Shown in pieces: positions 47,414-64,000 of a stretch of 64,000 nucleotides of DNA (within the stretch, counting starts at the first letter, position 1; each line of letters begins with the position of its first letter). Both the position numbers and the translations under genes were made by a program. The DNA comes from Rhodococcoides trifolii (GTDB lineage Bacteria > Actinomycetota > Actinomycetes > Mycobacteriales > Mycobacteriaceae). Below the pieces are notes generated by a model that worked only from the letters and a program-made list of their open reading frames with translations, had not been told where the DNA came from and did no database searches. The stretch lies in the NCBI RefSeq assembly GCF_014635345.1, contig NZ_BMCU01000006.1, positions 62,001-126,000 of the forward strand. The letters are read 5' to 3'.

Positions 47414-47433
47414 GTCACACAGTCCTTGTCGAG

Positions 47434-48429
47434 TCAGAGGTCGAGAACGAGGCGGTCGGAGCAGGATCGGGAGACGCAGATGAACATGCACCCGGCGCCG
47501 TCGCGTTCGGAATCGTCGAGGATCGAATCGCGGTGGTCCGGCTCGCCGTCCAGAACCGTTGTCTCACACGTGCCGCAGGTGCCCTCTCGGCACGACGACA
47601 AGACGTTGACGCCCGCATTCTGGACGGCGTCGAGAACGCTGCCGTTCGGAGACACGGTGACAGTTACTGCGCTGCGTGCGAGTTCGACCTCGAACGGCGC
47701 AGTACGCGCCGGTGCGGACTGCTGTTTCGGAACGAATCGTTCCATCCTCAGCTTGCCGACAGGCCAATCTACACAGCACTTTTCGACTGCACCGAGAAGC
47801 GGCTCGGGTCCACACACATACACCTTGGCGTCGTCGGATGCAGCTGCCGTCAGCCAGGTCGGCAGGTCGAGCAGGCCCACCTCGTCCTGCGGAGCAATCA
47901 CGACTCGGTTGCCGTACGCGGCAAGTTCGTCCACAAAGCCCATCGAAGTCCGTGTACGTCCCCCATAGAGGAGCGTCCACTCGATACCCATCAGGTCTGC
48001 CTGCGCCATCATCGGGATCAACGGAGTGATACCGATGCCCCCCGCGATGAACAAGTACCGCGGTGCGGGAACCAGAGGAAAGTTGTTGCGCGGACCACCC
48101 ACACCGACCACGTCGCCGACGGAGAGGACATCGTGCACGAATGCCGAACCGCCGCGTCCGGCCGGTTCTCGGAGCACGCCCACCCTGAACGTATACGGGT
48201 CCCAGCGATTTCCGCAGAGCGAATACTGCCGGGTCACACCCGACGGCAGGATCAGGTCGACGTGCGCACCCGGCGCCCAGTCCGGCAGACGCTTACCGTC
48301 TGGACGAGCGAGCGTCAGCGACACGACTCCCTCCGACACAACGTCTTTCGCCGTCACTCGCAGAGTCGAATCCGTGTGGTTGTCGAAGTCGTTCGTCATC
48401 ACGGTCGCGCAGTCGTCGTTGTCGATCAT
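47434..48429 (-). CDS. Phthalate-dioxygenase-reductase-type flavo-iron-sulfur protein
   Basis: A 331-residue reductase with FMN/NAD domains and a C-terminal plant-type [2Fe-2S] domain. RQYSLCG (about residues 67-73) binds flavin, YLFIAGGIGITPLIPM binds NAD, and CREGTCGTCE plus a later Cys (CMFICVS) hold the cluster. This type normally feeds Rieske oxygenases such as vanillate demethylase; here it lies directly before a P450 gene. It should deliver electrons from NADH to the P450. ATG 48429 with GAGGGAG upstream; promoter region carries an IclR-like palindrome. Confidence 0.9.
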   Translation of the reverse strand: MIDNDDCATVMTNDFDNHTDSTLRVTAKDVVSEGVVSLTLARPDGKRLPDWAPGAHVDLILPSGVTRQYSLCGNRWDPYTFRVGVLREPAGRGGSAFVHDVLSVGDVVGVGGPRNNFPLVPAPRYLFIAGGIGITPLIPMMAQADLMGIEWTLLYGGRTRTSMGFVDELAAYGNRVVIAPQDEVGLLDLPTWLTAAASDDAKVYVCGPEPLLGAVEKCCVDWPVGKLRMERFVPKQQSAPARTAPFEVELARSAVTVTVSPNGSVLDAVQNAGVNVLSSCREGTCGTCETTVLDGEPDHRDSILDDSERDGAGCMFICVSRSCSDRLVLDL

Positions 48430-48495
48430 CGGGTTCTCCCTCGTCTTACGTACAGATCGAGGATCTCCCGGAAGCAGTGGGAGCCGCTACGGCGT

Positions 48496-48510
48496 TCTCA
48501 ATAATTGAGA
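48496..48510. promoter_or_regulatory. Probable IclR operator
   Basis: TCTCAATAATTGAGA has perfect 7-bp arms around one central A. It lies between the IclR stop and the reductase start, about 67 nt before ATG 48429. IclR regulators of aromatic acid pathways use such sites. Confidence 0.65.
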
Positions 48511-48528
48511 GAAATTGTGTGTGTCTCG

Positions 48529-49290
48529 TCACGGCACAGGATTCCCCGCGGTCGCCATGACACGCGTGATGCCGCGACCGGCGGCTTGAAGGGCCGGGAT
48601 CAGCGCACGAGCGGCATCATCGTTCGGCACGATCACCGACAAGGCTGCAACGACCGAACTACCGGCATCGCGCAACGGCACCGCGATGCCGGTAGTTTCC
48701 TCGAAGATGTGGCCCGCACAGAACGCGTAGTCGAGCCGCCTCACCTCGGCCAATGCCGCCCTCAGTTCTCGACCCGTGCGCAGTGTCCGATCGGTGAACA
48801 CCGTCAGAGGTTCGGCGATGACGCGCTCCTGCTTCTCGGGCGTCGAGTGCGCAAGGAGAACCAGACCGGACGACGAAGCGTGCAGCGGTAATCGGCCGGC
48901 AACGCGCGAATAGTTGACCGCGGCGCCTCGTGCCGTGAGTCGCTCCACGAACAAGACCTCGCCTCCGTCCATTACACCCAACTGCGTGTGCTGTCCGATC
49001 ACCGCGTGCAAGTCCTCCATGAACGGCATTGCGGCCTCACGTAAACCCACCGTGGGCGAGGCCCGAGACGCGACCTCCCACAACCGGACTCCCACCCGGA
49101 CCAGTCGTCCGTCCCGCTCCAACCACCCCAGACTCACCAACTCCTCGATGAGCCGGGAGGCGGTCGCAACATGCAAGCCGGACCGCCGCGCGATGTCGGT
49201 GACAGTCAAGGCTCGGTCGTCGAGACCGAAAGACTCGACAATGCGCACCCCTCGAGCCAACACCGACTCGCCGGTGGGGACACGAGACAT
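48529..49290 (-). CDS. IclR-family transcriptional regulator
   Basis: A 253-residue IclR regulator with the N-terminal winged helix (GVRIVESFGLDDRALTVTDIARRSGLHVATASRLIEELVSLGWLERD) and a C-terminal effector domain (residues about 80-250, with HTQLGVMDGGEVLFVERL and FEETTGIAVPLRD). It likely senses an aromatic acid and controls the reductase-P450 operon downstream on the same strand through the 48496-48510 palindrome. Confidence 0.9.
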   Translation of the reverse strand: MSRVPTGESVLARGVRIVESFGLDDRALTVTDIARRSGLHVATASRLIEELVSLGWLERDGRLVRVGVRLWEVASRASPTVGLREAAMPFMEDLHAVIGQHTQLGVMDGGEVLFVERLTARGAAVNYSRVAGRLPLHASSSGLVLLAHSTPEKQERVIAEPLTVFTDRTLRTGRELRAALAEVRRLDYAFCAGHIFEETTGIAVPLRDAGSSVVAALSVIVPNDDAARALIPALQAAGRGITRVMATAGNPVP

Positions 49291-49775
49291 GGCACCTCCG
49301 CTCGATCAGAACGTACGTCACGCACCATGGTCCGCGCGGTTCATTACCGCCGTTCCGATCGCTCAGAACCCGGGAAACCGATCAGGGGGTCGTGGAGTTC
49401 GAGTCTTCTCCCCGCTGCGGTGCACGCCCGACGGGTACCGCCTCCAACCGACCTACTCGATCGTCGCCGGGTCATCAGTTCAGCGCGACCAGTTCGTGAA
49501 GGGGTATCGGTTTCGTCCATGCCCGCGGTGGTCTGCCGACACCTACTCCCGAAGAAGTGCATGCGATGTTCGCTCTGATGACCACATTGCCACCGGGCTA
49601 GTTTCGTCAGAGGCCGGTGACGCTTTGGTGTACGCGAGAGTCGCCGAGTCGTGCCCGCGCGATTCCCCAGAGCACGAGGGCGGCAGAGAGCACCGTCAAC
49701 GCACCGACATGAGCGTGTGGACGGCGCGGCACCGATGGACGAATCGCTGATGCGCACAACAGGACTGCGGCGCGC
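49291..49775. other. 485-bp stretch with no convincing gene
   Basis: Open frames here have no recognisable motifs and low coding character. A short minus-strand run near 49610-49740 encodes a hydrophobic segment (ALTVLSAALVLWGIARARLG) that could be the tail of a lost membrane protein. Otherwise nothing is seen. Confidence 0.5.
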
Positions 49776-50396
49776 TCAGACCATGCGGAACGCTTCGTCG
49801 AGCAACTCCCGTGCGAGCGTCACATCGGCGTCGGTGCCGTTCAGAAGGTTGTCGAGGCCGTTCTGAAAGATCCCGTCGAAGGTGGTGTACACCAGGTGTT
49901 TCGACAACCGAGCGGGCTCGCCGCGGAGCTCGCAGTAGCGGTTGACGACGTTCCAGATCATGTCCGCACGGCGCAGCTCGATCTCGCCGACTTCGTAACG
50001 CAGTGAGGACTCGAAGCGCGTCTGGTTACGCAGGTCGTACCAGAGACGGTGCAGGGCTGAGTCGTCCACCAAGGTCCCGATGAACATCGTGGTGAACCCG
50101 GCGCGTAACTCGGCAGCCGTGGACGCGCTCGCGACCGCCTCGTCGTACCGGGTGACGCACGTGTCCTCGTAAATCCGGACAGCCTCGGCGATCAGGTCGA
50201 GCTTGTCGCGAAAGTAGTAGTGCAGGACTCCGTGGGAGAACGCCGAGTTCTGCGCGATCTCACGCAGGCTCGTCCGTGCGTACCCCAGTTCGGCGAGTGT
50301 CACCAATGTTGCCGTTGCGAGCTCGCTGCGACGTGCCGCGAACTTGTCGGGCCCGCGCAGAACTGCGCGTGCCTCTCTTCGCGTGCCGGTAGCCAT
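49776..50396 (-). CDS. TetR-family transcriptional regulator
   Basis: A 206-residue TetR repressor: helix-turn-helix FAARRSELATATLVTLAELGYARTSLREIAQNSAFSHGVLHYYFRDKLDLI at about residues 19-69. The C-terminal ligand domain is the TetR_C_6-like type found with fatty acid and steroid regulators. It is divergent from the SDR operon and probably controls it via the 50479-50496 inverted repeat. Confidence 0.88.
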   Translation of the reverse strand: MATGTRREARAVLRGPDKFAARRSELATATLVTLAELGYARTSLREIAQNSAFSHGVLHYYFRDKLDLIAEAVRIYEDTCVTRYDEAVASASTAAELRAGFTTMFIGTLVDDSALHRLWYDLRNQTRFESSLRYEVGEIELRRADMIWNVVNRYCELRGEPARLSKHLVYTTFDGIFQNGLDNLLNGTDADVTLARELLDEAFRMV

Positions 50397-50478
50397 CGGA
50401 CCAGTGTAAGACGGCGGGGGCCGTCGACGTGTGGTTCGTCGTGTCTGCGCCAGGTTTTCTGACGACTGCCCAAAGTTC

Positions 50479-50496
50479 TCTTGACGTCTGTCAAGA
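50479..50496. promoter_or_regulatory. TetR operator overlapping a -35 element
   Basis: TCTTGAC-GTCT-GTCAAGA has perfect 7-bp arms. The left arm contains TTGACG, which with TAGTGT 18 nt later forms a likely promoter for the SDR gene at 50583, so binding would block transcription. Confidence 0.75.
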
Positions 50497-50582
50497 TCTT
50501 TTCGTAGTGTGACCCAGATCGCATTTTCTGCTGACTGTGCCCGGTATCCAAGCCGGCAAGTCCTTCTCGAAAGGGCAGTTCT

Positions 50583-51386
50583 ATGACGAGTTACGACCTC
50601 TCAGGCCGAAAGGCGCTGGTCACCGGCGCAGCACAGGGACTGGGCGCAGGTATGGCCTCTGCACTGGCGGCCGCGGGCGCGGCTGTCGCCGTTGCCGACA
50701 TCAACGACGAGCTCGGCCACGAAACGGTCGAAAAGCTCCGCTCAGGCGGCGCGACAGCGGAATTCGTCCATCTCGACGTACGGGACGATGCGGGATGGGA
50801 GTCGGCAACGGCCTCGGTCGTCGCCGCGTTCGGCGGGCTCGACATCGTCGTCAACAACGCCGGGATCGAGGTCACCGACCTCCTGATCGATTTCGATGCC
50901 GAGGCCGCGTCGACTCTCCTTTCGGTCAACGTGCTCGGGACGGCCCTGGGAATCAAGCACTCGTTCCGAACGATGCGCCCCGGGGGATCGGCGGGCGCCG
51001 GTGGATCGGTGGTCAACATCGCATCGGTTGCCGCAACGATCGCGTTCCCCGGCATCGCGCTGTACTCCGCGTCCAAATCCGGCATCGACCGGCTCACCCG
51101 CGTAGCGGCCGCCGAATCCGGGAAGCTCGGGTACGGAGTTCGGGTCAACTGCATCTACCCGGGCCTCACTCCTACGGCGATGGGCAACAAGCTCGCCGTC
51201 GAGACCGCTGCGCTCGGCCTCTTCGAGTCGCCGGAAGCGGCAGCCGGCGCGGTCGCCGAGCTGACTCCTCTCGGTCGTCTCGGCCAGGTCGACGACATGG
51301 CCGACGCGGTGGTTTTCCTGTCCTCCGACGCCGCCAAGTTCATCACCGGCGCCGGACTGCCTGTCGACGGCGGAATGGGCATGTGA
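50583..51386 (+). CDS. Short-chain dehydrogenase/reductase (fabG-like)
   Basis: A classical SDR of 267 residues: TGAAQGLGAGMA near residues 14-25, NNAGIEV near 94, and active-site SVAATIAFPGIALYSASKSGID with the Y-x3-K of YSASK. It likely oxidises or reduces a beta-hydroxy or sterol-type acyl-CoA. First gene of a TetR-controlled operon with the acyl-CoA ligase (35 nt downstream) and LLM oxidoreductase. Confidence 0.9.
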   Translation: MTSYDLSGRKALVTGAAQGLGAGMASALAAAGAAVAVADINDELGHETVEKLRSGGATAEFVHLDVRDDAGWESATASVVAAFGGLDIVVNNAGIEVTDLLIDFDAEAASTLLSVNVLGTALGIKHSFRTMRPGGSAGAGGSVVNIASVAATIAFPGIALYSASKSGIDRLTRVAAAESGKLGYGVRVNCIYPGLTPTAMGNKLAVETAALGLFESPEAAAGAVAELTPLGRLGQVDDMADAVVFLSSDAAKFITGAGLPVDGGMGM

Positions 51387-51420
51387 GGCCGCCGTACCTG
51401 TCGACGATACGGATTCGGTT

Positions 51421-52953
51421 GTGACACTTGCGTTCTACCTCGACAAGGGCGCGTCCCTCGGACCGGACGCGCCGTGCATGACTCTGCACGGCGAGTCGAT
51501 GACGTACGGCGAGGTCGTCGCGCTCTCGCATTCGGTCGCGAAGGCGCTCCGGCGCTCCGGCGTCGAACCCGGTCAGAAGGTCGGCATCCTGTCGGCCAAC
51601 CACCCGACCTCGTTCGCGTGCGTCTTCGGCATCGCCCGCGCGGGCGCCGTGTGGTGCCCGATCAATCCTCGTAACACGGCGCGGGAGAACGCCGACCTCC
51701 TCGACCTGTTCGACTGCACGACGCTGATCTACCAACCGGTTTTCGATGCTCTCGTGGGCCAGATAGCACCGCAGTTGTCCAAGCTGGTCGCCCTCGTCCG
51801 GATCGGTGAGGGAGACGATGTCGCAACAGGTTTCGCCGACTGGCTTGCAGCAGCGGACGCCGACGTCTCGGTCGACGTCATCCCCGTCGACGACGTCGTC
51901 GCGCTCGTCGGGACGGGCGGAACAACCGGTCGCCCGAAGGGAGTCATGCTCACCGATCGGAATCTGCAGACGATGACCGCGGTGGTCTTGATGCGGTATC
52001 CGTTCGACGGGCGGCCGCGCTACCTGGCTCTGGCGCCGCTCACCCATGCCGCAGGTGTTCTGTGCTTCCCGATCATGTCGCTGGGGGGCGAAATCGTGGT
52101 GATGGATCACCCGGATGTCGGCGAGTTCCTCGAACTGGTCGAAACGCATCGGATCACGCACACGTTTCTGCCGCCCACCCTGATCTACATGGCGCTCGCA
52201 CACCAGTCGCTGAACAACACCGATCTTGAGTCGCTGCAATGCTTTTGGTACGGCGCGGCACCGATGTCCACCACCCGACTGGCGGAGGCTCTGGACCGAA
52301 TCGGCCCGATGGCCCAACTGTTCGGCCAATCCGAAGCCCCCATGATGATCTCGACACTGTCGCCGGCGCAGCATCGCCGCCCGGATGGCAGCATCGATCA
52401 CGCGAGGCTGTCGAGCGCCGGAACACCGTCTCCGCTTGTGACAGTGGCGATCCTCGACGACAACGGGGCCGCGGTCCCCGCGGGTGCACGCGGCGAGGTC
52501 TGCGTGCGCGGCCCGTTGGTGATGGCCGGCTACTACAAGAATCCGGAGGCCACCGCAGAGGCGTCGGCCCATGGGTGGCACCACACCGGCGACATCGGCT
52601 TCCTCGACGACGACGGCTTTCTCTACATCGTCGACCGCGCCAAGGACATGATCATCACCGGCGGATTCAACGTGTACTCCGCGGAGGTGGAGCAGGCGCT
52701 GATGGCCCACGACGCTGTCCGCGACTGCGCCGTCATCGGACTCCCCGACGAGAAGTGGGGCGAGCGGGTCACTGCTGTCGTCCTGCTGCACGACGGTGCC
52801 TCGGTCGACACCGACGAAGTGGTCCGTTTCGTCAAGGATCGCGTCGGAAGTGTCAAGGCGCCCAAGCAAATCGAGGTGTGGAGCGACCTTCCTCGATCGA
52901 CCGTCGGGAAGATCCTCAAGACCGACATCCGAGCGACCCTGACCGGCACCTGA
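51421..52953 (+). CDS. Acyl-CoA synthetase (AMP-forming)
   Basis: A 510-residue ANL-superfamily ligase. The P-loop-like motif is LVGTGGTTGRPKGVML (about residues 161-176), followed by FGQSEAP (A5), the ATP motif HTGDIGFLDDDGFLYIVDRAKDMIITGGFNVYSAEVE (A7/A8) and the catalytic Lys in RSTVGKILKTD (A10). It activates a carboxylic acid to acyl-CoA. The chain length and substrate are not evident. GTG 51421 follows the SDR stop by 34 nt. Middle gene of the operon. Confidence 0.92.
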   Translation: MTLAFYLDKGASLGPDAPCMTLHGESMTYGEVVALSHSVAKALRRSGVEPGQKVGILSANHPTSFACVFGIARAGAVWCPINPRNTARENADLLDLFDCTTLIYQPVFDALVGQIAPQLSKLVALVRIGEGDDVATGFADWLAAADADVSVDVIPVDDVVALVGTGGTTGRPKGVMLTDRNLQTMTAVVLMRYPFDGRPRYLALAPLTHAAGVLCFPIMSLGGEIVVMDHPDVGEFLELVETHRITHTFLPPTLIYMALAHQSLNNTDLESLQCFWYGAAPMSTTRLAEALDRIGPMAQLFGQSEAPMMISTLSPAQHRRPDGSIDHARLSSAGTPSPLVTVAILDDNGAAVPAGARGEVCVRGPLVMAGYYKNPEATAEASAHGWHHTGDIGFLDDDGFLYIVDRAKDMIITGGFNVYSAEVEQALMAHDAVRDCAVIGLPDEKWGERVTAVVLLHDGASVDTDEVVRFVKDRVGSVKAPKQIEVWSDLPRSTVGKILKTDIRATLTGT

Positions 52954-52994
52954 CCCCCCGAACCTACCGGACAATCCGAACACAGGAGAAGACC

Positions 52995-53990
52995 ATGCTC
53001 GAACTAGCCCTGTACCTTCCCAACTTTCGCGAAAAGGTCACCGTCGCCGAACTCGAGGACCTCACGCGCCTGGCGGAGGAGCTCGACTTCGAATCCGTGT
53101 GGACACTCGACCGCATCATCGTCCCCGAGGCGTCCGATCGCGCGGAGATGGAATACGCCTTCGGAATGATGCACGAGTTGCCCAAACAGCTCCCGGTCTC
53201 GTCCAGAGGCCAGTTCCTGCAGGGATTCCCACTCATTCCATGGCTCGCCGCGAAGACCACGAAGGTCAGGATCGGGATGAGCATCATCGATACGCCCTAC
53301 CGTGCGCCCGGGGTGCTCGCCGCCGAACTCGCCACCATCGACCACCTCAGCAGCGGGCGCCTCAACGTCGCCGTCGGAGCGGGGTGGATGCCCGAGGAGT
53401 TCGCCGCGGCGAGTGCGAGTCACATCTTCCCCCGCCGTCACCAACACCTGCGCGAGACCATCGAGATCCTGCAGGGTATCTGGGCGAACGAGGTGTTCGA
53501 ATACCACGGCGAGTTCGCCGATTTCGGTCCCAGCGGGTTTGGAATGAAGCCGCTGCAGCAGCCCCGACCTCCCATGTATTTCAGCGGGTTGAAGGACGCC
53601 AAGCGGGCGGCGAAACGCGTTGCGAAGTACGGATTGGACGGGTGGATCGGCATTCAGGACTCGCCCGAAGAGATCGCGACCTGGCGTGCGGGCATCGCCA
53701 CCGAGCTCGATGCGCTGGACACGACTCGCACAGTGGACGACCTCGACATCGCAAGCATGATCTGGACCGTCATCACCGATGTCGACATGGACCAGACCCT
53801 GGCAGGGAAAGCGACGAATCTGCTCGTCGGTTCCGAACGGCAGGTGACCGACATGCTCAAGCGCTACCGCGAGGCAGGCCTGACCAAGCTGTTGATCTGG
53901 CCGCCGTTCGCGGACGTGCCGACCCCGAAGACGATGGACGACATGAAGCGCCTCAAGAACGACATCATGCCGAAGGTCGACGCCATGTGA
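52995..53990 (+). CDS. LLM-class F420-dependent oxidoreductase
   Basis: A 331-residue luciferase-like protein. The N-terminal LELALYLPNF and ESVWTLDRIIVPE, with AELATIDHLSSGRLNVAVGAGWMPEEFAAASA (about residues 110-140), are the LLM pattern; these use F420 or FMN. Together with the SDR and acyl-CoA ligase it may oxidise steps of a fatty acid or cyclic ketone pathway. ATG 52995 has AGGAGAAG upstream. Last gene of the operon; convergent with a hypothetical gene. Confidence 0.9.
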   Translation: MLELALYLPNFREKVTVAELEDLTRLAEELDFESVWTLDRIIVPEASDRAEMEYAFGMMHELPKQLPVSSRGQFLQGFPLIPWLAAKTTKVRIGMSIIDTPYRAPGVLAAELATIDHLSSGRLNVAVGAGWMPEEFAAASASHIFPRRHQHLRETIEILQGIWANEVFEYHGEFADFGPSGFGMKPLQQPRPPMYFSGLKDAKRAAKRVAKYGLDGWIGIQDSPEEIATWRAGIATELDALDTTRTVDDLDIASMIWTVITDVDMDQTLAGKATNLLVGSERQVTDMLKRYREAGLTKLLIWPPFADVPTPKTMDDMKRLKNDIMPKVDAM

Positions 53991-55982: not shown

Positions 55983-56161
55983 TCCTATCCGTCTCGTGGC
56001 AGGCAGTTCCGCGGCTACTGCTCGACCGTGCTACCGACAGACCCTACTTCTTCGCGGTGATGCGTATTTGTCGAAAAGCCGAAAACCCGACACCACGTGA
56101 GGAGGCGATGGGGTCTGTCCTCTCCTTTCACGTCGGTGATTCATGAAGGCAGCTAACATGA

Positions 56162-56173
56162 ACTGAAGTCAGT
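56162..56173. promoter_or_regulatory. Shared operator, copy 1 (before the OYE gene)
   Basis: ACTGAAGTCAGT: ACTGA and TCAGT arms around AG. On the minus strand it reads with TGACTTCAGTT, which also occurs at 60092-60102. It lies 34 nt before ATG 56208. Confidence 0.65.
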
Positions 56174-56207
56174 ACATGCAGACGCACTGCCACGAAGGGC
56201 AACCCCT

Positions 56208-58142
56208 ATGAGTCCCGAGTTTCAGCATCTGTTCTCACCGCTACAGCTCGGTGGAATGACGTTGAAGAACCGGCTCGTTGCACTCCCGGCCGGAACCAGC
56301 ATGGCCGAGCGCGGGGTTCCCACCCACGGCGACACCGAACACTTCGAGCGGCTCGCCGCAGGCGGCGTCGGGATGATCATCGGCGGGGCCACCGTGGTGC
56401 ACCGCACGACTACGCTCCGCTCACGCAAGCTCATCGAGGGCTATCTCGACGAGTTCGTTCCCGCGACGGCGGCCAAGGTGGATGTCATTCATCGCCACGG
56501 CGCCCGGTTCGTTGGCCAGTTGTGTCACCTCGGACGGGAGTTCATCGGGGGAGAATCGGACGCGCCGCCCTCCGCCCCGTCTCCGATCAAGACGGTGCGT
56601 GATGCGTACCCGCCCCACGAACTCACCGTCCCCGAGATCGAGGACATCGTGGAGGGGTGGCGGATCTCGACTCGAAATCTTGTTCGAGCGGGTGTGGACG
56701 GAGTCGAAGTTCATGCGGCTCACGGCTATCTGCCGGCACAGTTCATGTCGCCGCTGTCGAATCAGCGAGGTGACAGCTTCGGGGGTTCGTTCGAGAACCG
56801 AATGCGTTTCCCGCGCATGGTCATCGACGCGATGAAGTCGGTCATCCCGGACGGTTTCGTGCTCGGCGTTCGGCTCAGTGGCGAAGAGGAAATTCCCGGA
56901 GGGATGGGCATCGACGACTGCGTTCGTATTGCCGAGAACCTGGCGGGGCTCGGGATCGACTACTTCAGTATCACGCACGGTACCCGCGGCAAGTACGTGA
57001 AGGATTCGACGAACGAAGACGGGGTCGCCATTCCGTCCGCATCCAGAGTTCGCGCCGCAACGGGCGTGCCCACCCTTGTCGGGCAACGGATTCGCGACGC
57101 CGGTACAGCCGACCATGCCATCAAGTCGGGTCATGCCGACATGGTCGGTATGGCTCGAGCACTCATCGCCGACCCCGATCTCCCGATCAAGTCGCAAACC
57201 GGCCGCCTGGAAGAGGTTCGCGGATGTCTCGGCATCAACCAGGATTGCCGAGCGTTCGACCCCCACCTGCACTGTGCCGTCAATGCCGAGGTAGGGCGCG
57301 GGCGTCATCCCTCCGTCGGGGTGGCCGTTCGAAAGCCCAAGGACGTCTTCGTCATCGGAGGAGGACCCGCAGGACTCGAGGCGGCGAGAGTGGCCGCCGG
57401 TCGCGGTCATCGGGTCACGGTATTCGAGAGGAACGAGACTCTCGGAGGGGCGGTCCGTATGGCTGCGGCGGCACCCTACCGAGCAACGTTGATGGACATC
57501 ATCGACTATTTGCACCGCGAGACCCGGCGACTGAAGGTCGACGTGAACCTCTCTGCTGGAATCGAAGTCGACGACATACCCGACATCCTGGACTCGTCCG
57601 ATCATGTCATCGTGGCGACCGGGTCACGACCCGCAGATCTACCGGCCCGTCTGCGCGGGCGTCTCGCGGCGACAGTCGACGACGTGCTGCTGGGGCGACT
57701 GCCCGACGTTCGGATCGGCCAGGCAGTCGTGTTCGACGAGGGCGACGGCTTCTGGCCCGCGTACAGCGCCGCGGAGACGCTTGCGCAGTCGGGGTGGCAG
57801 GTCACCATCGCCACGCCCCTCACGTCGTTGGCGTCCCGCGTTCCTGCCGAGAGCGCCGGCCCGCTACTCGGCCGACTCGCATCGGCGGGAGTGCAATTCG
57901 CGGTGGCGCAATCCTTGGTAGTACCGGACGACAGTTCGGCGCCACTGCACTTGCGACCCGTGTTCGGCATCGGCGATACCGCGCTGGGTGACGTTCTGAC
58001 GGTGTGGCACACGCCGCGAGTACCGGTGTCGTCTCTGGGCATCGAGCCGGGTGCGACCGTGAGCGTGATCGGTGACTCGCTGGCACCGCGGCGCATCGGC
58101 CACGCGATCGCCGAGGGCTATCGTGCAGGAGCGGAGGTGTAG
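56208..58142 (+). CDS. Old yellow enzyme-type reductase, FadH-like two-domain
   Basis: A 644-residue enzyme with an N-terminal OYE barrel (residues 5-340) and a C-terminal FAD/NAD half (VFVIGGGPAGLEAARVAAGRGH near residue 380). FadH/trimethylamine dehydrogenase relatives carry a 4Fe-4S cluster between the halves. Here the linker reads GCLGINQDCRAFDPHLHC: only three cysteines, with Ile where the second ligand Cys normally is. It probably reduces an activated C=C bond. ATG 56208 follows the shared operator. First gene of the 56-64 kb oxidoreductase group. Confidence 0.88.
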   Translation: MSPEFQHLFSPLQLGGMTLKNRLVALPAGTSMAERGVPTHGDTEHFERLAAGGVGMIIGGATVVHRTTTLRSRKLIEGYLDEFVPATAAKVDVIHRHGARFVGQLCHLGREFIGGESDAPPSAPSPIKTVRDAYPPHELTVPEIEDIVEGWRISTRNLVRAGVDGVEVHAAHGYLPAQFMSPLSNQRGDSFGGSFENRMRFPRMVIDAMKSVIPDGFVLGVRLSGEEEIPGGMGIDDCVRIAENLAGLGIDYFSITHGTRGKYVKDSTNEDGVAIPSASRVRAATGVPTLVGQRIRDAGTADHAIKSGHADMVGMARALIADPDLPIKSQTGRLEEVRGCLGINQDCRAFDPHLHCAVNAEVGRGRHPSVGVAVRKPKDVFVIGGGPAGLEAARVAAGRGHRVTVFERNETLGGAVRMAAAAPYRATLMDIIDYLHRETRRLKVDVNLSAGIEVDDIPDILDSSDHVIVATGSRPADLPARLRGRLAATVDDVLLGRLPDVRIGQAVVFDEGDGFWPAYSAAETLAQSGWQVTIATPLTSLASRVPAESAGPLLGRLASAGVQFAVAQSLVVPDDSSAPLHLRPVFGIGDTALGDVLTVWHTPRVPVSSLGIEPGATVSVIGDSLAPRRIGHAIAEGYRAGAEV

Positions 58143-58146
58143 TCCC

Positions 58147-58851
58147 CTACAGTGAGTTGAGCAGTGCTGCAACTTGATCGGGAATAGTGACCATAGCCAT
58201 GTGGCCGGAGTCCATGAAGACGACATCACCGGGCACCGACTGTGTGCACACGATCGCGGCAGAATTCTCCTGCAGCTGAGGCGGGTAGCAGACATCGTTC
58301 GTCAACCGCACGTAGGTCCGCGGCACCTTCGTCTGCAGTCCGGAGAGGTCCACCGTCTCGGTCAGCAGAGCACCGGAGTCGTCGATGACCTGATCGATGG
58401 TCCAGGACGACTGCTCGGCATCCATGTCGTTGCACAGCATGGCTCTCGCGCCCTCGGCGCTCTGACCGTATAGACCGTCGACGATCGATGCTTCAACCAG
58501 GTCGCGCACACCGGGGTCGATCTGGTCGATGACTTTTGTTCCGTCCGGTGGGACCACAGCGGACAGGAATACCACGTGCTTGACCCGATCCTGCAGTATG
58601 GCCATCACTCTCGGCACTGACACACCGCCGAACGAATGTGCGACGAGCACGATGTCGGTGAGGTCTGCGGCCTCCACGTCGGCGACGATGGCCGCGGCGC
58701 AGTCGTCGAGCGTGACGGTGCGAAGATCGGTGTCGGCGCGCGTGCCCCGGCCGGGCAGGTCCACGGCGACCGCCGGTGCGTTGAGCAGGGGTACCAGGCG
58801 GTCCCAGCACGACGCACCCATTCCGGCGCCGTGGACGAGAACGAACGACAT
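58147..58851 (-). CDS. Alpha/beta hydrolase
   Basis: A 234-residue hydrolase. The oxyanion motif is HGAGMGASCW (7-16), the nucleophile serine is in AHSFGG (about residues 72-77), and the His is in DSGHMAM near the C-terminus. It resembles salicylate/methyl ester and DUF-type esterases. The gene follows the alkenal-type reductase gene with a 28-nt gap on the same strand, so they are probably co-transcribed. It may hydrolyse an ester or lactone after ring reduction (inference). Confidence 0.87.
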   Translation of the reverse strand: MSFVLVHGAGMGASCWDRLVPLLNAPAVAVDLPGRGTRADTDLRTVTLDDCAAAIVADVEAADLTDIVLVAHSFGGVSVPRVMAILQDRVKHVVFLSAVVPPDGTKVIDQIDPGVRDLVEASIVDGLYGQSAEGARAMLCNDMDAEQSSWTIDQVIDDSGALLTETVDLSGLQTKVPRTYVRLTNDVCYPPQLQENSAAIVCTQSVPGDVVFMDSGHMAMVTIPDQVAALLNSL

Positions 58852-58879
58852 GAGATCTTCCTTTCGATATACCCGCGAC

Positions 58880-59914
58880 TCAGGCGAGTCGGCAGAGTGT
58901 CTTTCCGGTTGTCCGGCCGTTCAGCAGATCCACGAGAGCGGTCGGTGCTTGTTCCAGTTCCTCGTACACGGACTCTCGATGGACCATCGAGCCGTCGGAA
59001 AGGTGTGTTCCCACCTCGAAGCGCATCGCGTCGTAGAGGTGGGCGAAGGACCCGGCTCGGAACCCTCTGATAGACAGGCTCTTCGCCGTGATCTGGAAGG
59101 TGTTGGACGGGCCGGGGCCGGGGGCGGCCACGTCGTAACCGGAGATTGCGCCGCACATGGCAATTCGTCCGCCCGTTCGCAGATTGGCGAGAGCCGCGTC
59201 GAAGTGATCGCCCCCGACGTTGTCGAAATACGCATCGATACCGTCGGGTGCGGCGTCGGCAACCAGGGTAGTCACATCGCCGGAGTGGTAGTCGAACGCG
59301 CTGTGCACACCAAGACCGTCACGCAAATAGTCGACCTTGTCCTGGTTGCCGGCGGACGCGATGACAGTGCTGCCGCGCAACACGGCCAGCTGGGCGGCGA
59401 TGCTTCCTACCGCACCGGCCGCGGCTGACACCCACAGGACGTCGGCCGGCTGCAGGCCGATGATCTCGACCAGTCCGACGTACGCCGTCAGTCCCGAGCT
59501 GCCGAGTGGTCCGAGGAACCACTGTGGCGCAAAGCCATCGGTCTCGATCTTGGTCAGTGAGCCGGCTCCGCCCAGTCCACCGCCACCCGCGGGTACCACC
59601 GCGCAGTCGCGGTACCCGTACATGTGAGTGACGGTGTCGCCCGGCGAGAACCGACTGCTGCGTGATTCGACGACCACTCCGAGCGCCAACCCGACGAGCG
59701 GTTCGCCGACCTCGAACGGCGGCAGATACCCGTTGGGTGTGACGGCATGGAGGCGAAGTCGAACGGACGGGTCGATCGACAGCCATGTGTTGCGGACCAG
59801 GACATCGTCGGGGCCAAGGGGTCCGATTTTTTCCTCGAGGATCGTGAAGTGTTCGGGGCTGAGCGATTTGTCGGGGCGGGTTGCGAGGCAGAGGATGCGG
59901 TTCATCGTGGTCAC
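58880..59914 (-). CDS. NADPH-dependent alkenal/one reductase-like protein (PTGR family)
   Basis: A 344-residue medium-chain reductase of the leukotriene B4 dehydrogenase/curcumin reductase type. It has NTWLSIDPSVRLRL (about residues 40-53), the cofactor motif SAAAGAVGSIAAQLAVLRG, FDNVGGDHFDAAL and MCGAISGYD. It reduces double bonds conjugated to carbonyls using NADPH. GTG 59914 has AGGAAG 8 nt upstream; ATG 59905 is an alternative. It is divergent from the binding-protein gene across the shared operator. Confidence 0.88.
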   Translation of the reverse strand: MTTMNRILCLATRPDKSLSPEHFTILEEKIGPLGPDDVLVRNTWLSIDPSVRLRLHAVTPNGYLPPFEVGEPLVGLALGVVVESRSSRFSPGDTVTHMYGYRDCAVVPAGGGGLGGAGSLTKIETDGFAPQWFLGPLGSSGLTAYVGLVEIIGLQPADVLWVSAAAGAVGSIAAQLAVLRGSTVIASAGNQDKVDYLRDGLGVHSAFDYHSGDVTTLVADAAPDGIDAYFDNVGGDHFDAALANLRTGGRIAMCGAISGYDVAAPGPGPSNTFQITAKSLSIRGFRAGSFAHLYDAMRFEVGTHLSDGSMVHRESVYEELEQAPTALVDLLNGRTTGKTLCRLA

Positions 59915-60086
59915 GAGGGATTCTTCCTGCCTTGGGTGGTGAGCCAACTCCGCTGGCCCCCGGCTGGTTTGGGACCGTCATCGGACCCACGTGGTTCGCA
60001 GCACGGTCTACGACCCACCGAAAATCACCGCCGAAGTTCTGTTCCTCGGTGTGATTGACATTACGTTCACTAGGGCCCACGCTATA

Positions 60087-60101
60087 TGAATTGACTTCAG
60101 T
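60087..60101. promoter_or_regulatory. Shared operator, copy 2 (divergent promoter)
   Basis: TGAATTGACTTCAGT lies 15 nt before ATG 60117 and next to a likely -10 element TATATG (60083-60088), where a bound repressor would block transcription. It shares TGACTTCAGTT with copy 1. Confidence 0.65.
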
Positions 60102-60116
60102 TTGCCAAGGAGGGCC

Positions 60117-61157
60117 ATGAGAGTGCGTCTGTCGAGAAGAGTTGGGCTAGCGGTCGTACTGTCGACGACGATGGTGCTCTCGGCCTGTAGCGGTGGAATG
60201 TCGTCATCCGGTCCGGTCGAGGGGACGTGGGACCAGATCGTCGCTGCGGCCGAGCGGGAGGGTTCGGTCTTCCTGTATTCCACTCAGCATCCGGAAAACC
60301 TGCAGGCGTTGAAGACTGCATTCTCGCAGGCTTACCCCGAGATCGAGATGGAGTTCGTCCGCGGTACCGATGTCGAACTCAACCCGCGGGTCGAGACCGA
60401 AAATCGAACCGGCAAGGGCACCGGAGACGTTCACATGGCGTCCGACCCAGCCTGGATCACCAATGCGGCCGCCTCCGGTGTGTATTCGACCGATATCGTC
60501 GGACCAGCCTTCGACAATGCCGACTACGGACGCGAACGCAGCGTGCTGGAAGACAAAATTTTCCTGACCAGCGCCGCTGTTTTCGCGATGGCGTGGAACA
60601 CGAGCGCGTTGCCGCAGGGCCTTGCATCCACCGACGATCTGCTCGACCCCGCACTCGACGAAAAGATCGGTGTCGTCAACCCGGCCGGCTTCGCCGCCGT
60701 CGTGGACGAGTACCAATTCTTCGATAGGGAGTGGAGCGGTGGCTTCAACGAACAACTGGCTCAACTCAACCCGCGGATCTACCCTGGTTCTCTCGGCATC
60801 GCTCAGGCACTCAGCTCAGGTGAAGTCGTCGCGACGCCCATGGTGCAGCCACTGGTCCGAGAAATGGCAGCCGGCGCTCCAGTCGACTGGGCGCTGCCGA
60901 ATCCCGCCTGGGGAACGCCCTGGTATTCGCACGTCCTATCAGCAGCCCCGCATCCCAATGCCGCTCAGGTACTCGCGAACTTCATGGTGACACCGGAAGG
61001 TCAGACGGCGTTGTCCTATGGTTACGGCAGCGCATTGCCGAACATCGAGGGGGCCGTGGCCCGCGCGCAGGACATTCCGCTCCCGGACACTGAAACTCTT
61101 ACACCCGAGTTCGTTTCGCAGTTCCAGCAGGAGTGGGAGAAGGACTTCGTCCGATAA
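60117..61157 (+). CDS. Extracellular solute-binding lipoprotein (Fe3+/family 1 type)
   Basis: A 346-residue binding protein. The lipobox VLSAC places the lipid Cys near residue 24, and the mature protein opens DQIVAAAEREGSVFLYSTQHPENLQALKTAFSQAYPEIEMEFVRGTD. This is the spermidine/putrescine or iron-type (FbpA-like) family. It lacks neighbouring permease or ATPase genes; instead an MFS protein gene follows after 10 nt. An excellent ribosome binding site, AAGGAGG, precedes ATG 60117. Confidence 0.85.
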   Translation: MRVRLSRRVGLAVVLSTTMVLSACSGGMSSSGPVEGTWDQIVAAAEREGSVFLYSTQHPENLQALKTAFSQAYPEIEMEFVRGTDVELNPRVETENRTGKGTGDVHMASDPAWITNAAASGVYSTDIVGPAFDNADYGRERSVLEDKIFLTSAAVFAMAWNTSALPQGLASTDDLLDPALDEKIGVVNPAGFAAVVDEYQFFDREWSGGFNEQLAQLNPRIYPGSLGIAQALSSGEVVATPMVQPLVREMAAGAPVDWALPNPAWGTPWYSHVLSAAPHPNAAQVLANFMVTPEGQTALSYGYGSALPNIEGAVARAQDIPLPDTETLTPEFVSQFQQEWEKDFVR

Positions 61158-61167
61158 CGGGGTCGTG

Positions 61168-62763
61168 ATGACGCGCCCCAAGACTGTCGGCCTGTTCACG
61201 CCACTGCGCGTGCCGCGGTTTCGCATGATGCTGGGCTTCGAACTGAGCGCCAGTGTGGGCGTGTGGGTTCTTGTACTCGCCGCACAGTGGATTCTCACCG
61301 AATCGGGGGAGTCCGCCACCACGGTGGCGGCGGTACAGTTCGCCGCGAGTGTGCCGTTCTTCCTCTTCGCGCTGCCTCTCGGTGCGGTTGCCGAGTACGT
61401 CGGGCACCGCTTCCTGTTGGTCGGCACGTCCGCGGTGCTGCTGGTGGCGGCGGTATTGCTCAGCCTGCTGCAACACCTCGGCCTCGCCACCACGCCCGTA
61501 CTGATGCTCGCCGTGTTCGGAGCGGGAAGCGGGCTCGCATCGGTCGCGATCGTGTGGCAGGCGTTGCTTCCGCACTTGGTGACACGCGAGATGATGACGG
61601 TGGTACCGGCGATCGACGGCGCGGTGTTCAACGGCGCACGTGCGATCGGTCCCGTCGTCGGTGGTGCCGTCCTCGCAGTCTGGGGCCCTACCTGGACCTT
61701 CGTCCTGGTGGCCGGTTTGTTCGCCGCGTGTGTTGCGATCGCGGCGCGCCAGGTGCCCGCAGCGTCGGGCCGTAATCCGAAACAGGGATCGGTTGTCGAC
61801 GCAGTGGGAGGAAGTCTGCGATTCATCAGGCATTCGCGATGGACACGTCGACTTCTGTTGCGGGTGATCATGTTCGGGATACCCGCCAGCAGCCTCTGGG
61901 CTCTGCTGCCCGTCGTCGCGAACGAGCGATTGCACGCCACGACGCTGGAGTTCGGTCTGCTCTCCGGGGCGATCGGCATCGGAGCCGTGGCGGGCACCAT
62001 CGTCCTGATGCCGGTCCGGGCGCGGATCAGCTGGAACGGTTTCGTCGCGCTGGGATCCGCGGCGTACGCGGTGGTTCTCGCCGGTCTCGCATCGATCCCG
62101 CACCAGGGCGTTGCTTTCGCGCTGTTGGTCGTTGTCGGGGCGGCCTGGGTCGGTGTGCAGAGCACCTGGATGATCGCGACGCACGCCGTCATGCCGCCGT
62201 GGGTGAAGGCGCGCGTCATCGCATTCGTCATGTTGACGTTTCAGGGAAGCCAGGCCGTCGGTGCACTGTTGTGGGGTCTGCTCACGGATCACATCGGACT
62301 GATCCCGGCAATGCTGTTGTCCGCGTGCTTGATGCTGATGTCGGCGGGGGAGATTCTGCGCCGAGGGATTCTGCCGAGCGAGACCATCGCACCCGACCCG
62401 TCCGGCGCGTCCGCGCCGTCGGCCCCGCCCGGGAACTACCGCGGTCAGCGGGTGATCGTCGAGACCGTCTACACCGTCCGGCCCGGCCGCACCGACCGAT
62501 TCATCGACGACGTCGCAGAATTGAAAAGATCACGGCTGCGCCTCGGTGCAGTGCGGTGGACCCTTGCGGCGTCTGCCTCGTCGGACGAGTCCTACGTGGA
62601 ATTCTGTACGTACAAGAACTGGAGCGACTACCTGGCGCAGGAGACGACCCGGCTGACGATTCCCGAGAGTCGGGTGCGGCAGAGGGTGATCGAGAATGTG
62701 GTGCGCTCACCCGAGGTCTCCATGTTCGTGGTGTTCGGACGCGGTGAAGACGTCACACGGTGA
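61168..62763 (+). CDS. MFS transporter with C-terminal ABM-like domain
   Basis: A 531-residue protein of the MFS_3 (enterobactin exporter-like / transmembrane secretion effector) group. Twelve hydrophobic segments (about 1-400) are followed by a soluble tail (about 430-531, VIVETVYTVRPGRTDRFIDDVAELKRSRLRLGAVRWTL and onwards) that resembles antibiotic-biosynthesis-monooxygenase folds. It should export or import a small molecule. The gene follows the binding-protein gene after 10 nt. Its 3' end overlaps the convergent SDR gene by 11 nt. Confidence 0.85.
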   Translation: MTRPKTVGLFTPLRVPRFRMMLGFELSASVGVWVLVLAAQWILTESGESATTVAAVQFAASVPFFLFALPLGAVAEYVGHRFLLVGTSAVLLVAAVLLSLLQHLGLATTPVLMLAVFGAGSGLASVAIVWQALLPHLVTREMMTVVPAIDGAVFNGARAIGPVVGGAVLAVWGPTWTFVLVAGLFAACVAIAARQVPAASGRNPKQGSVVDAVGGSLRFIRHSRWTRRLLLRVIMFGIPASSLWALLPVVANERLHATTLEFGLLSGAIGIGAVAGTIVLMPVRARISWNGFVALGSAAYAVVLAGLASIPHQGVAFALLVVVGAAWVGVQSTWMIATHAVMPPWVKARVIAFVMLTFQGSQAVGALLWGLLTDHIGLIPAMLLSACLMLMSAGEILRRGILPSETIAPDPSGASAPSAPPGNYRGQRVIVETVYTVRPGRTDRFIDDVAELKRSRLRLGAVRWTLAASASSDESYVEFCTYKNWSDYLAQETTRLTIPESRVRQRVIENVVRSPEVSMFVVFGRGEDVTR

Positions 62764-63541
62764 ACCGCCCACCGTTACTGAGCAGAACAGCACCGACCAC
62801 GTTGGCTGCTGCCGGCGAGGCGAGATAGAGAATGTTGTCCGCCAGTTCCTCGGCGCTGGCATAGCCACGAAACCCGTTCTGTGTCATGGCAGCTCGGAGT
62901 CGCTCCGGTGTTCGACGCGCCATCGCGGTGTCCACCGGTCCCGGTGCGACCGTGTTGACTCTGATTCCGAATGCGGCGGCTTCCTTCGCGACCGACTGGC
63001 TCAAGGCGTGCACTCCCGCCTTGGACGCCGCGTAGTGCGGGTAGCCGAGAAGGGTGTCGAACGCCGAGGACGATCCGACGGTCACTATGGAGCCTCGACC
63101 CGCTGCCTTCATGACGCGAACCGCTTCGCGAAGGACGTGGAACGTGCCGTCGAGGTTGACGGACATGATGCGGCGCCAGTCCGAGTCGTCGATATGCGTC
63201 AGGACGTCCACGGGCTCTGCTCGGGTCATCGCGTCGTGGATGCGTTGTTTGCTGGCCGGGTCGTCGATTCCGGCGGCGTGGACCACGACGTCGATTCGTC
63301 CGTGCGTGTTCGCTATGCCGGCGAAGACGGCGGTCACACTCTCCGAATCGCTCACGTCTAGTGCGACAGGGTGGCCGACTTCGATGGTGGACGAGTGCGT
63401 CGTCACCGCTGCGGAATCGACGTCGCAGAGATATACCGCCGCTGCCCCACGATCGGCCAGCGAACGTGCTGTGGCCGCGCCGATCCCCGATCCGGCTCCG
63501 GTCACCACCGTAACCACCCCATCGAAGTCTCGCTCCGCCAT
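62753..63541 (-). CDS. Short-chain dehydrogenase/reductase
   Basis: An SDR of 262 residues: TGAGSGIGAATA near residues 14-25, HAAGID near 90, and active-site SSSAFDTLLGYPHYAASKAGVHAL with the Y-x3-K of YAASK. ATG 63541 has AGGAAGG upstream. It belongs to the shared-operator group, since its promoter region holds the third copy. It is divergent from the FAD dehydrogenase gene and probably acts with it on an alcohol/ketone pair. Confidence 0.88.
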   Translation of the reverse strand: MAERDFDGVVTVVTGAGSGIGAATARSLADRGAAAVYLCDVDSAAVTTHSSTIEVGHPVALDVSDSESVTAVFAGIANTHGRIDVVVHAAGIDDPASKQRIHDAMTRAEPVDVLTHIDDSDWRRIMSVNLDGTFHVLREAVRVMKAAGRGSIVTVGSSSAFDTLLGYPHYAASKAGVHALSQSVAKEAAAFGIRVNTVAPGPVDTAMARRTPERLRAAMTQNGFRGYASAEELADNILYLASPAAANVVGAVLLSNGGRFTV

Positions 63542-63610
63542 GAAACACGCCTTCCTGCAACGGTTGTGACGCCACGACATCGGTGCCGACAGTGTCGTCT
63601 CGCATTCACC

Positions 63611-63624
63611 AAGTGAATTCACTT
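63611..63624. promoter_or_regulatory. Shared operator, copy 3 (perfect palindrome)
   Basis: AAGTGAATTCACTT is a perfect 14-bp palindrome between the divergent SDR (63541) and FAD dehydrogenase (63714) starts. Extended, TGAATTCACTTCACT aligns with TGAATTGACTTCAGT at copy 2, with two differences in 15 bases. Confidence 0.65.
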
Positions 63625-63713
63625 CACTGTAAGGTGATCGGCAACACAACGCAACGAAGGCGGTTCTCGTAACAATGGTCGCCGCGCGAGCAGCTCGAGG
63701 AAACGGAGTTCCG

Positions 63714-64000
63714 ATGGACGAAGACGACTACGACTTGCTCGTGATCGGTGCGGGCATGGCAGGGCTGACGGCGGCCGCGAAGGCCGCTTCCACGGGTAGC
63801 CGTGTCTGTGTGCTCGACGTCGGATCGGACGTCGGTGGTTCCGCCCGGTTCGCCGGCTACGTCTGGACGGCACCCGATCACGCGACAATGGACGAGCACA
63901 ATCCGAACGGAGACTCTGCGCTGAAGCGGGCGTTGATCGACCGTTTCGACGACGGGGTGCAGTGGATTCGATCCGTCGGTGTGGACGTCGGCGAGGCGCA
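63714..64000 (+). CDS. FAD-dependent dehydrogenase (partial, C-terminus beyond window)
   Basis: The first 95 codons of a flavoprotein of the fumarate reductase/KstD-like type. YDLLVIGAGMAGLTAAAKAASTGSRVCVLD is the FAD motif (residues 6-35), followed by GGSARFAGYVWTAPDHATMDEHNPNGD. Family members include succinate/urocanate dehydrogenases and 3-ketosteroid delta-1 dehydrogenase. The window cuts the gene, so no more can be said. ATG 63714 has ACGGAG upstream. Divergent from SDR and likely co-regulated. Confidence 0.85.
   Translation, partial: MDEDDYDLLVIGAGMAGLTAAAKAASTGSRVCVLDVGSDVGGSARFAGYVWTAPDHATMDEHNPNGDSALKRALIDRFDDGVQWIRSVGVDVGEA

Follow-up and report, generated by a model that had tools for sequence, protein, structure and literature searches.

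Inverted-repeat operators of a probable TetR-controlled catabolic regulon in Rhodococcoides trifolii and other actinobacteria

The 64,000-nucleotide stretch of Rhodococcoides trifolii DNA analysed here (the window; C6:62001-126000 of a 5.29 Mb genome designated G000, with C6 coordinates being contig positions) contains three related promoter sequences, termed operators A, B and C. With a probability of roughly 85%, these are the operators of a TetR repressor whose gene lies 8.2 kb beyond the window. That gene is part of a 28-kb catabolic cluster (C6:118.2-146.8 kb), which also carries operators at promoters within C6:127-146 kb. Comparison of promoters across relatives defined the operator as a 19-bp inverted repeat, AACTGAA-N5-TTCAGTT. 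From these data we infer TetR binding of the sites, repression, and an acyl-CoA inducer.

A first-pass annotation of the window had reported three look-alike sequences at promoters of one catabolic gene group, and all three were found at the coordinates that it gave. The shared core proved real and not a product of chance, with the segment originally taken as the core representing one half-site and the spacer of the 19-bp inverted repeat. Within the window alone, TGACTTCAGT at ≤1 mismatch gave 3 matches against 2.25 expected, a number that 37 of 100 shuffles equalled or exceeded, and missed the third site. At the same tolerance WTTSACTTCAST gave 4 matches against 0.71 expected, three of them being the annotated sites, and none of 100 shuffles reached that number. 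Taken alone, the within-window evidence for a shared motif is weak.

Across the whole genome, the strict core WYTSACTTCAST has four exact matches, all within 27 kb (C6:118162-144760). Three are the window sites and the fourth is located at C6:144749, 18.7 kb beyond the window. The strict core was fitted to the three window sites; the fourth match is the sole independent success, and the cross-genome tests described below carry the weight. At ≤1 mismatch, WYTSACTTCAST occurs 56 times genome-wide against 58 for the reversed control, and specificity is therefore limited to the strict form. Two looser patterns were tried and rejected as genome-wide tests given their modest excess over controls, namely ABTSANNTCAST (30 matches against 24) and the loose palindrome WNTGRANNNNNTTCANT (188 against 148). 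The 19-bp form AACTGAANTNANTTCAGTT at ≤3 mismatches identified nine places in the whole genome, eight in the cluster and one outside (C1:547068), with none for the reversed control; operator A has four mismatches to AACTGAANTNANTTCAGTT and is consequently missing from this list. The motif is thus not found at random frequency genome-wide, the outcome named in the first-pass annotation as counting against a regulon, with the strict core and the 19-bp form being nearly restricted to the cluster.

To extend the comparison beyond this genome, 40-kb neighbourhoods were taken from 20 of the 47 other relatives that possess the TetR, and 17 of the 20 contain the core cluster. The remaining three genomes (G119, G289 and G174) have no core cluster near the TetR and were left out of the training set. 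In the clusters of the 17 relatives and this one (~40 kb each), a first matrix gave 203 matches scoring ≥15 bits, and first-order shuffles gave 0, 0 and 2. This excess is partly circular since the matrix was seeded from the sites of this genome and refined on the same sequences. A second matrix took its 139 sites, picked with the first matrix, from the 17 other genomes only. Run over 113 kb of the present contig, it recovered 11 sites at 21.2-27.9 bits, all in the 28-kb cluster and corresponding to nine places of which two are doubled. Operators A, B and C are all among the 11, and the next-best score was 15.5 bits at a position overlapping one of them.

A broader set consisted of TetR loci from named genomes, the best 80 of 248 relatives (52-85% identity), with loci extending ~10 kb on each side; it overlaps the 20 neighbourhoods (G036 and L104, for example), such that the counts for the 80 loci are not independent of training. 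At least one site of at least 13 bits was present in 78 of these best 80 loci, the two without being L123 and L155. With overlapping doubled sites counted singly, the loci hold 422 sites at this threshold against 4 in shuffles. When only loci outside the training family by record title were considered, 33/33 had at least one site (L110 was left out of this tally, a few of the 33 share contigs, and L146 holds a single site of 14.3 bits). These loci come from Nocardioides, Aeromicrobium, Pimelobacter, Streptomyces, Pseudonocardia, Prauserella, Saccharothrix, Nonomuraea and Sphaerisporangium. The doubling of sites is confined to a 5-bp offset, with a second site at -5 for 35% and at +5 for 48% of 129 distinct sites; the other offsets between 1 and 12 gave none.

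The cluster TetR scores above cut-off for PF00440 and PF17932, and consists of an N-terminal TetR helix-turn-helix followed by an all-helical ligand domain. Inverted-repeat DNA sites are typical of TetR repressors. Of the 301 genomes in the family, 48 (with this genome counted) carry an ortholog at E ≤1e-30. The operator at ≤2 mismatches was found in 43/48 TetR-positive genomes (178 places) against 35/253 TetR-negative genomes (43 places), with a Fisher p of 6e-25 that overstates certainty given that related genomes are not independent. Two or more operator places occur in 38 of the 48 TetR-positive genomes and in 5 of the 253 TetR-negative genomes. The genome-wide and cross-genome counts strongly support both earlier proposals, that of one regulon over the three sites and that of a TetR-like regulator encoded just outside the window.

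Several features of individual TetR loci were also observed. The TetRs of G119, G289 and G174 (two of which are also L141 and L135) are 69-74% identical to the cluster TetR in genomes with 0, 0 and 1 operators at ≤2 mismatches, and are orphan regulators or remnants. An operator-like site ~70 bp 5' of the TetR gene in many of L104-L183 suggests that TetR is autoregulated from an internal promoter; in this genome the TetR-proximal site is weak (13.5 bits, C6:134830) and is located inside the AMP-ligase gene. The L110 record, NZ_JNYV01000002.1, is titled Kitasatospora arboriphila, yet the contig position of its TetR is identical to that in G106:C2. G106 belongs to the family of the window and to the genus (g10) holding the Williamsia contigs, and the L110 record is probably mislabelled.

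The genes led by operators were then compared between genomes, with a site counted as directly upstream of an ortholog when it scored ≥15 bits and was no more than 350 bp away. Such a site leads the EthD gene in 16/17 relatives, the acyl-CoA dehydrogenase (ACAD) gene ACAD3 in 16/16, NTF2a in 16/17 and the solute-binding protein gene SBP2 in 13/16, whereas nine inner operon genes, each compared in 16-17 genomes, have none. Within ~10 kb of TetR, the APH, AMP-ligase and ACAD2 genes are each present in 66 of the best 80 loci, the thiolase and enoyl-CoA hydratase (ECH) genes in 65, and ACAD1 in 62. The locus of Rhodococcus jostii NBRC 16295 (L137) is one that carries the cluster. Because operators are regular at the core promoters and patchy at the window-gene orthologs, membership of the core is firm while that of each window gene depends mostly on its site in this one genome. 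The window genes are the accessory edge of the regulon and the core is a CoA-ligase/beta-oxidation operon.

A number of observations weigh against the explanation favoured here. Five of the 48 TetR-positive genomes are without any site at ≤2 mismatches, the 5/253 TetR-negative genomes noted above hold two or more, and a TetR ortholog occurs without the core nearby in 3 of the 20 relatives. The second matrix, despite its training on other genomes, traces back to seeds from the sites of this genome. Orthologs of the window genes are only patchily led by operators, with 1/8 for the OYE-type reductase, 0/7 for the short-chain dehydrogenase/reductase (SDR) SDRa, 6/17 for the solute-binding protein SBP1, 4/10 for the FAD dehydrogenase, 5/13 for the alkenal reductase, 2/4 for the hydrolase and 5/7 for the MFS transporter. 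Finally, the pathway proposed below is read from homology.

The placement of the operators relative to promoter elements is best defined at the ECH gene, where a TTGAC box is located 25-27 bp 5' of the operator in 18/18 clusters (the 17 relatives and this one). Three further rows in that comparison, from sites elsewhere in G022, G109 and G266, are without the box. Given this spacing, the ECH operator covers the -10 position and the likely transcript start, an arrangement expected of a repressor site. In this genome, the operator-to-start distances are 16 bp for ECH, 10 bp for EthD, 14 bp for SBP1, 33 bp for the OYE-type gene and 1 bp for NTF2a. Most likely, a repressor dimer bound to AACTGAA-N5-TTCAGTT would block transcription by occupying the -10 region or the point where the transcript begins. 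Doubled operators at the 5-bp offset would accommodate two dimers, which the half helical turn would set on opposite faces, and an acyl-CoA of the pathway would release TetR. An acyl-CoA is proposed as the inducer because of the fold and family of the protein. The predicted TetR model (pLDDT 90.3) is essentially all helical with KstR2 as the nearest fold (TM 0.78/0.82), and AibR, FadR and DarR are among the matches.

With regard to the regulated pathway, ACAD1 matched ACAD11 structures over 395 aa (PDB 8v3u, E 1.3e-123), against 5e-40 for the best ordinary acyl-CoA dehydrogenase; the single better match than ACAD11 was 4hr3, named a putative acyl-CoA dehydrogenase. The APH protein matched the kinase region of ACAD11 at 3e-13, its best match (4e-16) being 3dxp, an APH-like chain likewise named a putative acyl-CoA dehydrogenase, and it retains the catalytic motifs HGDYRLGN (HGDxxxxN) and IDWE (DWE). 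Both marks of an lva/ACAD11-type pathway, an ACAD11-type dehydrogenase and an APH-fold kinase partner, are found in the cluster. The thiolase carries a GCATG stretch, which we take to be its nucleophile motif. ACAD10/11 and the bacterial LvaA/LvaC act on 4-hydroxyacyl-CoAs, which enter beta-oxidation by way of a phosphorylated intermediate (PMC12440821, PMC6692424). In this cluster, an acid would be imported and ligated to CoA, and the 4-hydroxy (or reduced 4-oxo) acyl-CoA would be phosphorylated by the APH kinase and converted to the enoyl-CoA by the ACAD11-type dehydrogenase. The hydratase, SDR and thiolase would act next, such that the ligase, SDRs, ECH and thiolase would complete one turn of beta-oxidation, with the window reductases, hydrolase and transporters feeding the core. 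That this 4-hydroxyacyl-CoA route is the regulated pathway is put at slightly under even odds. The pathway suggested in the first-pass annotation was drawn from an incomplete gene set. The conserved core consists of CoA-dependent beta-oxidation that includes an ACAD11-type step, and ring reduction plus hydrolysis could at most be an accessory layer. Abscisic acid was considered as a substrate and set aside, as nothing links the Rhodococcus literature on abscisic acid catabolism to the cluster.

Chance similarity of A+T-rich promoter segments in a G+C-rich genome could account for the chance-level occurrence of the window-only 10-mer and for loose forms that remain near their controls genome-wide. 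The near restriction of the strict core and 19-bp form to the cluster cannot be accounted for in this way, nor can the recovery of the same places by a matrix trained on other genomes, and on the strict-core count, the 19-bp genome scan, the co-occurrence and the other-genome matrix this explanation was rejected as scarcely credible. It is also improbable that the operators belong to a different regulator, such as the TetR encoded in the window (49776-50396) or an unlinked protein. The window TetR is only ~6 kb from operator A, in G269 and G165 a homolog of it shares a contig with the cluster TetR (~51 and 39 kb off), and the assignment of binding to the cluster TetR is one that we infer. The operator nevertheless co-occurs with the cluster TetR, while homologs of the window TetR (≥50% identity) are present in 0/20 of the 40-kb stretches from relatives and in 0/80 loci. 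Genomes with a close window-TetR ortholog and no cluster TetR hold 0 (G044), 0 (G062), 0 (G104) and 1 (G107) operators at ≤2 mismatches. On the absence from the loci and the near-zero operator counts, the window TetR was rejected as the regulator. Operators positioned 10, 14 and 1 bp 5' of the EthD, SBP1 and NTF2a start codons would suit a TetR that is mainly an activator, or sites that act after transcription near ribosome-binding sites; with the ECH site overlapping the -10 position behind a conserved TTGAC, either role is considered very improbable.

A steroid or bile-acid ring or side-chain pathway encoded by a KstR2-like cluster, in place of 4-hydroxy-acid catabolism, is unlikely but of some weight. 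KstR2 is the nearest solved regulator fold and the cluster holds a KstD-like FAD enzyme, a BaiCD-like OYE-type protein, a lipid-transfer-type thiolase and a ChsH2-like OB protein. However, C6:116-147 kb contains no full match to the KstR2 operator AnCAAGnnCTTGnT or to TnnAACnnGTTnnA, the operator motif of KstR, with the shorter inner cores found 1 and 5 times, and these operators were ruled out as the identity of the sites. The cluster TetR is likewise not a KstR equivalog, scoring 29.2 bits against the NCBIfam KstR model with its cut-off of 280. OYE-type genes are present in only 9/80 and FAD-type genes in only 15/80 loci, against 66 and 62 for APH and ACAD1.

The features of the window and the candidate regulator gene are collected in Table 1. 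In contrast to the original description, control of the alkenal reductase and hydrolase by operator B is doubtful, as ~175 bp separate the site from that start and only 14 bp from the binding-protein ATG. The nearest NCBIfam models to the OYE-type protein are mycofact_OYE_2 and BaiCD, and those matched by the alkenal-type reductase are curcumin reductase and LTB4 12-HDH, all under cut-off. SBP1 shares 61% identity with SBP2 further along the cluster.

Table 1. Operators and genes of the window, with the candidate regulator gene beyond it. Positions are those of the window unless given as C6.
Feature	Position	Strand	Description
Operator A, ACATGAACTGAAGTCAGTA	56156..56174		19-bp inverted repeat, 33 bp 5' of OYE-type reductase ATG; 21.4 bits with matrix from other genomes
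OYE/FadH-type flavin oxidoreductase	56208..58142	+	644 aa; Pfam Oxidored_FMN + Pyr_redox_2; likely regulon member
Alpha/beta hydrolase	58147..58851	-	Pfam Abhydrolase_6; homologs led by operators in relatives
Zinc-type alkenal/curcumin reductase-like oxidoreductase	58880..59914	-	Pfam ADH_N_2, ADH_zinc_N; start GTG 59914 or ATG 59905
Operator B, ATATGAATTGACTTCAGTT	60084..60102		14 bp 5' of binding-protein ATG; 26.2 bits; 2 mismatches to consensus pattern
SBP1, ABC-type extracellular solute-binding lipoprotein	60117..61157	+	Pfam SBP_bac_11/SBP_bac_8; ATG 60117 after GGAGGG
MFS_3-type transporter	61168..62763	+	Pfam MFS_3
SDRa, short-chain dehydrogenase/reductase	62753..63541	-	Pfam adh_short_C2; start 69 bp from operator C
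Operator C, AAGTGAATTCACTTCACTG	63611..63629		Between SDRa and FAD dehydrogenase; 21.2 bits; 3 mismatches to consensus pattern
FAD-binding dehydrogenase (TcuA/flavocytochrome c/KstD-like)	63714..64000, continues to C6:127066 (1066 bp past window end)	+	NCBIfam matches under cut-off
TetR, putative regulator	C6:134157-134780	-	8.2 kb beyond window

Past the window, the plus strand encodes in order the FAD dehydrogenase, SBP2, an SDR, an ABC ATPase and permease, and another SDR. On the minus strand these are followed by an MBL-fold hydrolase, the EthD protein, TetR, the AMP ligase, a zinc alcohol dehydrogenase, two SDRs, ACAD1, the APH kinase, ACAD2, the lipid-transfer-type thiolase, an OB-fold (ChsH2_C) protein, ECH and ACAD3. 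Two small plus-strand genes, NTF2a (SnoaL_2) and NTF2b, are located at the far end; NTF2a had no match in the PDB search and NTF2b matched no Pfam family. In L158, L160 and similar loci, the operator-led binding protein looks branched-chain-type, against the phosphonate/iron-type protein in this genome, the label for these Streptomyces-type clusters being read from the N-terminus and not from a database match. The importer seems to change between genomes while the regulator and core stay.

Two neighbouring gene groups were also noted. Window positions 46196-53990 hold an adjoining, apparently separate group comprising an AMP ligase, an SDR and the window TetR together with P450-, reductase-, IclR- and LLM-type F420-like genes, these last four labels being assigned from sequence alone. 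Across the 20 neighbourhoods and 80 loci, nothing ≥50% identical to the TetR, IclR, SDR or ligase of this group was found close to the regulon. At C6:155478-165000, ~29-39 kb past the window end, an aromatic-type cluster without operators of this kind contains genes resembling those for ring-hydroxylating dioxygenase subunits, for an intradiol dioxygenase and for a muconate cycloisomerase, all labelled from sequence alone.

No description of this regulon was found among the open-licence papers listed, which is weak evidence of absence given that subscription literature was mostly outside that scope. Through the present analysis, a common soil-actinobacterial catabolic cluster, for which no assigned substrate was found, gains a defined operator, a candidate regulator gene and a mechanistic marker in the ACAD11-type dehydrogenase and kinase. 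The function of the cluster is testable with one repressor and a panel of candidate acids, and the operator matrix can be used to seek further regulon members in other sequenced actinobacteria.

Among known systems, the KstR2 regulon of cholesterol catabolism in Mycobacterium and Rhodococcus (PMC3068626) is alike in that its TetR repressor is encoded within a cluster for CoA-dependent catabolism, palindromic operators occupy intergenic regions close by, and the system is conserved in actinobacteria. It differs in its operator AnCAAGnnCTTGnT, in ~25% identity of the regulator and in its gene set. In addition to being the nearest solved fold, KstR2 gave a near full-length sequence match in the PDB, ranked after two unnamed regulators. 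The TetR-family repressors AibR and FadR are alike in fold at 17-20% identity, with isovaleryl-CoA-bound AibR structures among the matches. DarR is also alike in fold and, by the title of its record (8svd), binds DNA as a dimer of dimers, a mode plausible for the doubled sites here; unlike for DarR, only the 5-bp doubling points to it in this case. A CoA ligase, an SDR, an APH kinase and an ACAD11-type dehydrogenase are what the cluster has in common with the Pseudomonas putida lva operon and with ACAD10/11 of mammals (PMC12440821, PMC6692424). The APH and ACAD1 pair reaches ACAD11 in PDB searches, while LvaA/LvaC are likened by description only. The cluster differs from lva in having TetR in place of LvaR, and in its additional hydratase, thiolase/OB pair, further acyl-CoA dehydrogenases, EthD, MBL and ABC importer. 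We tentatively propose, at less than even odds, that this is an undescribed regulon spread across several actinobacterial families, from Rhodococcus, Nocardia and Dietzia to Nocardioides, Streptomyces and Pseudonocardia. In it, an acyl-CoA-sensing, KstR2-related TetR would act on doubled operators as two dimers to control a dedicated 4-hydroxyacyl-CoA funnel, a counterpart of lva and ACAD10/11 into which species-specific importers and reductases would be plugged.

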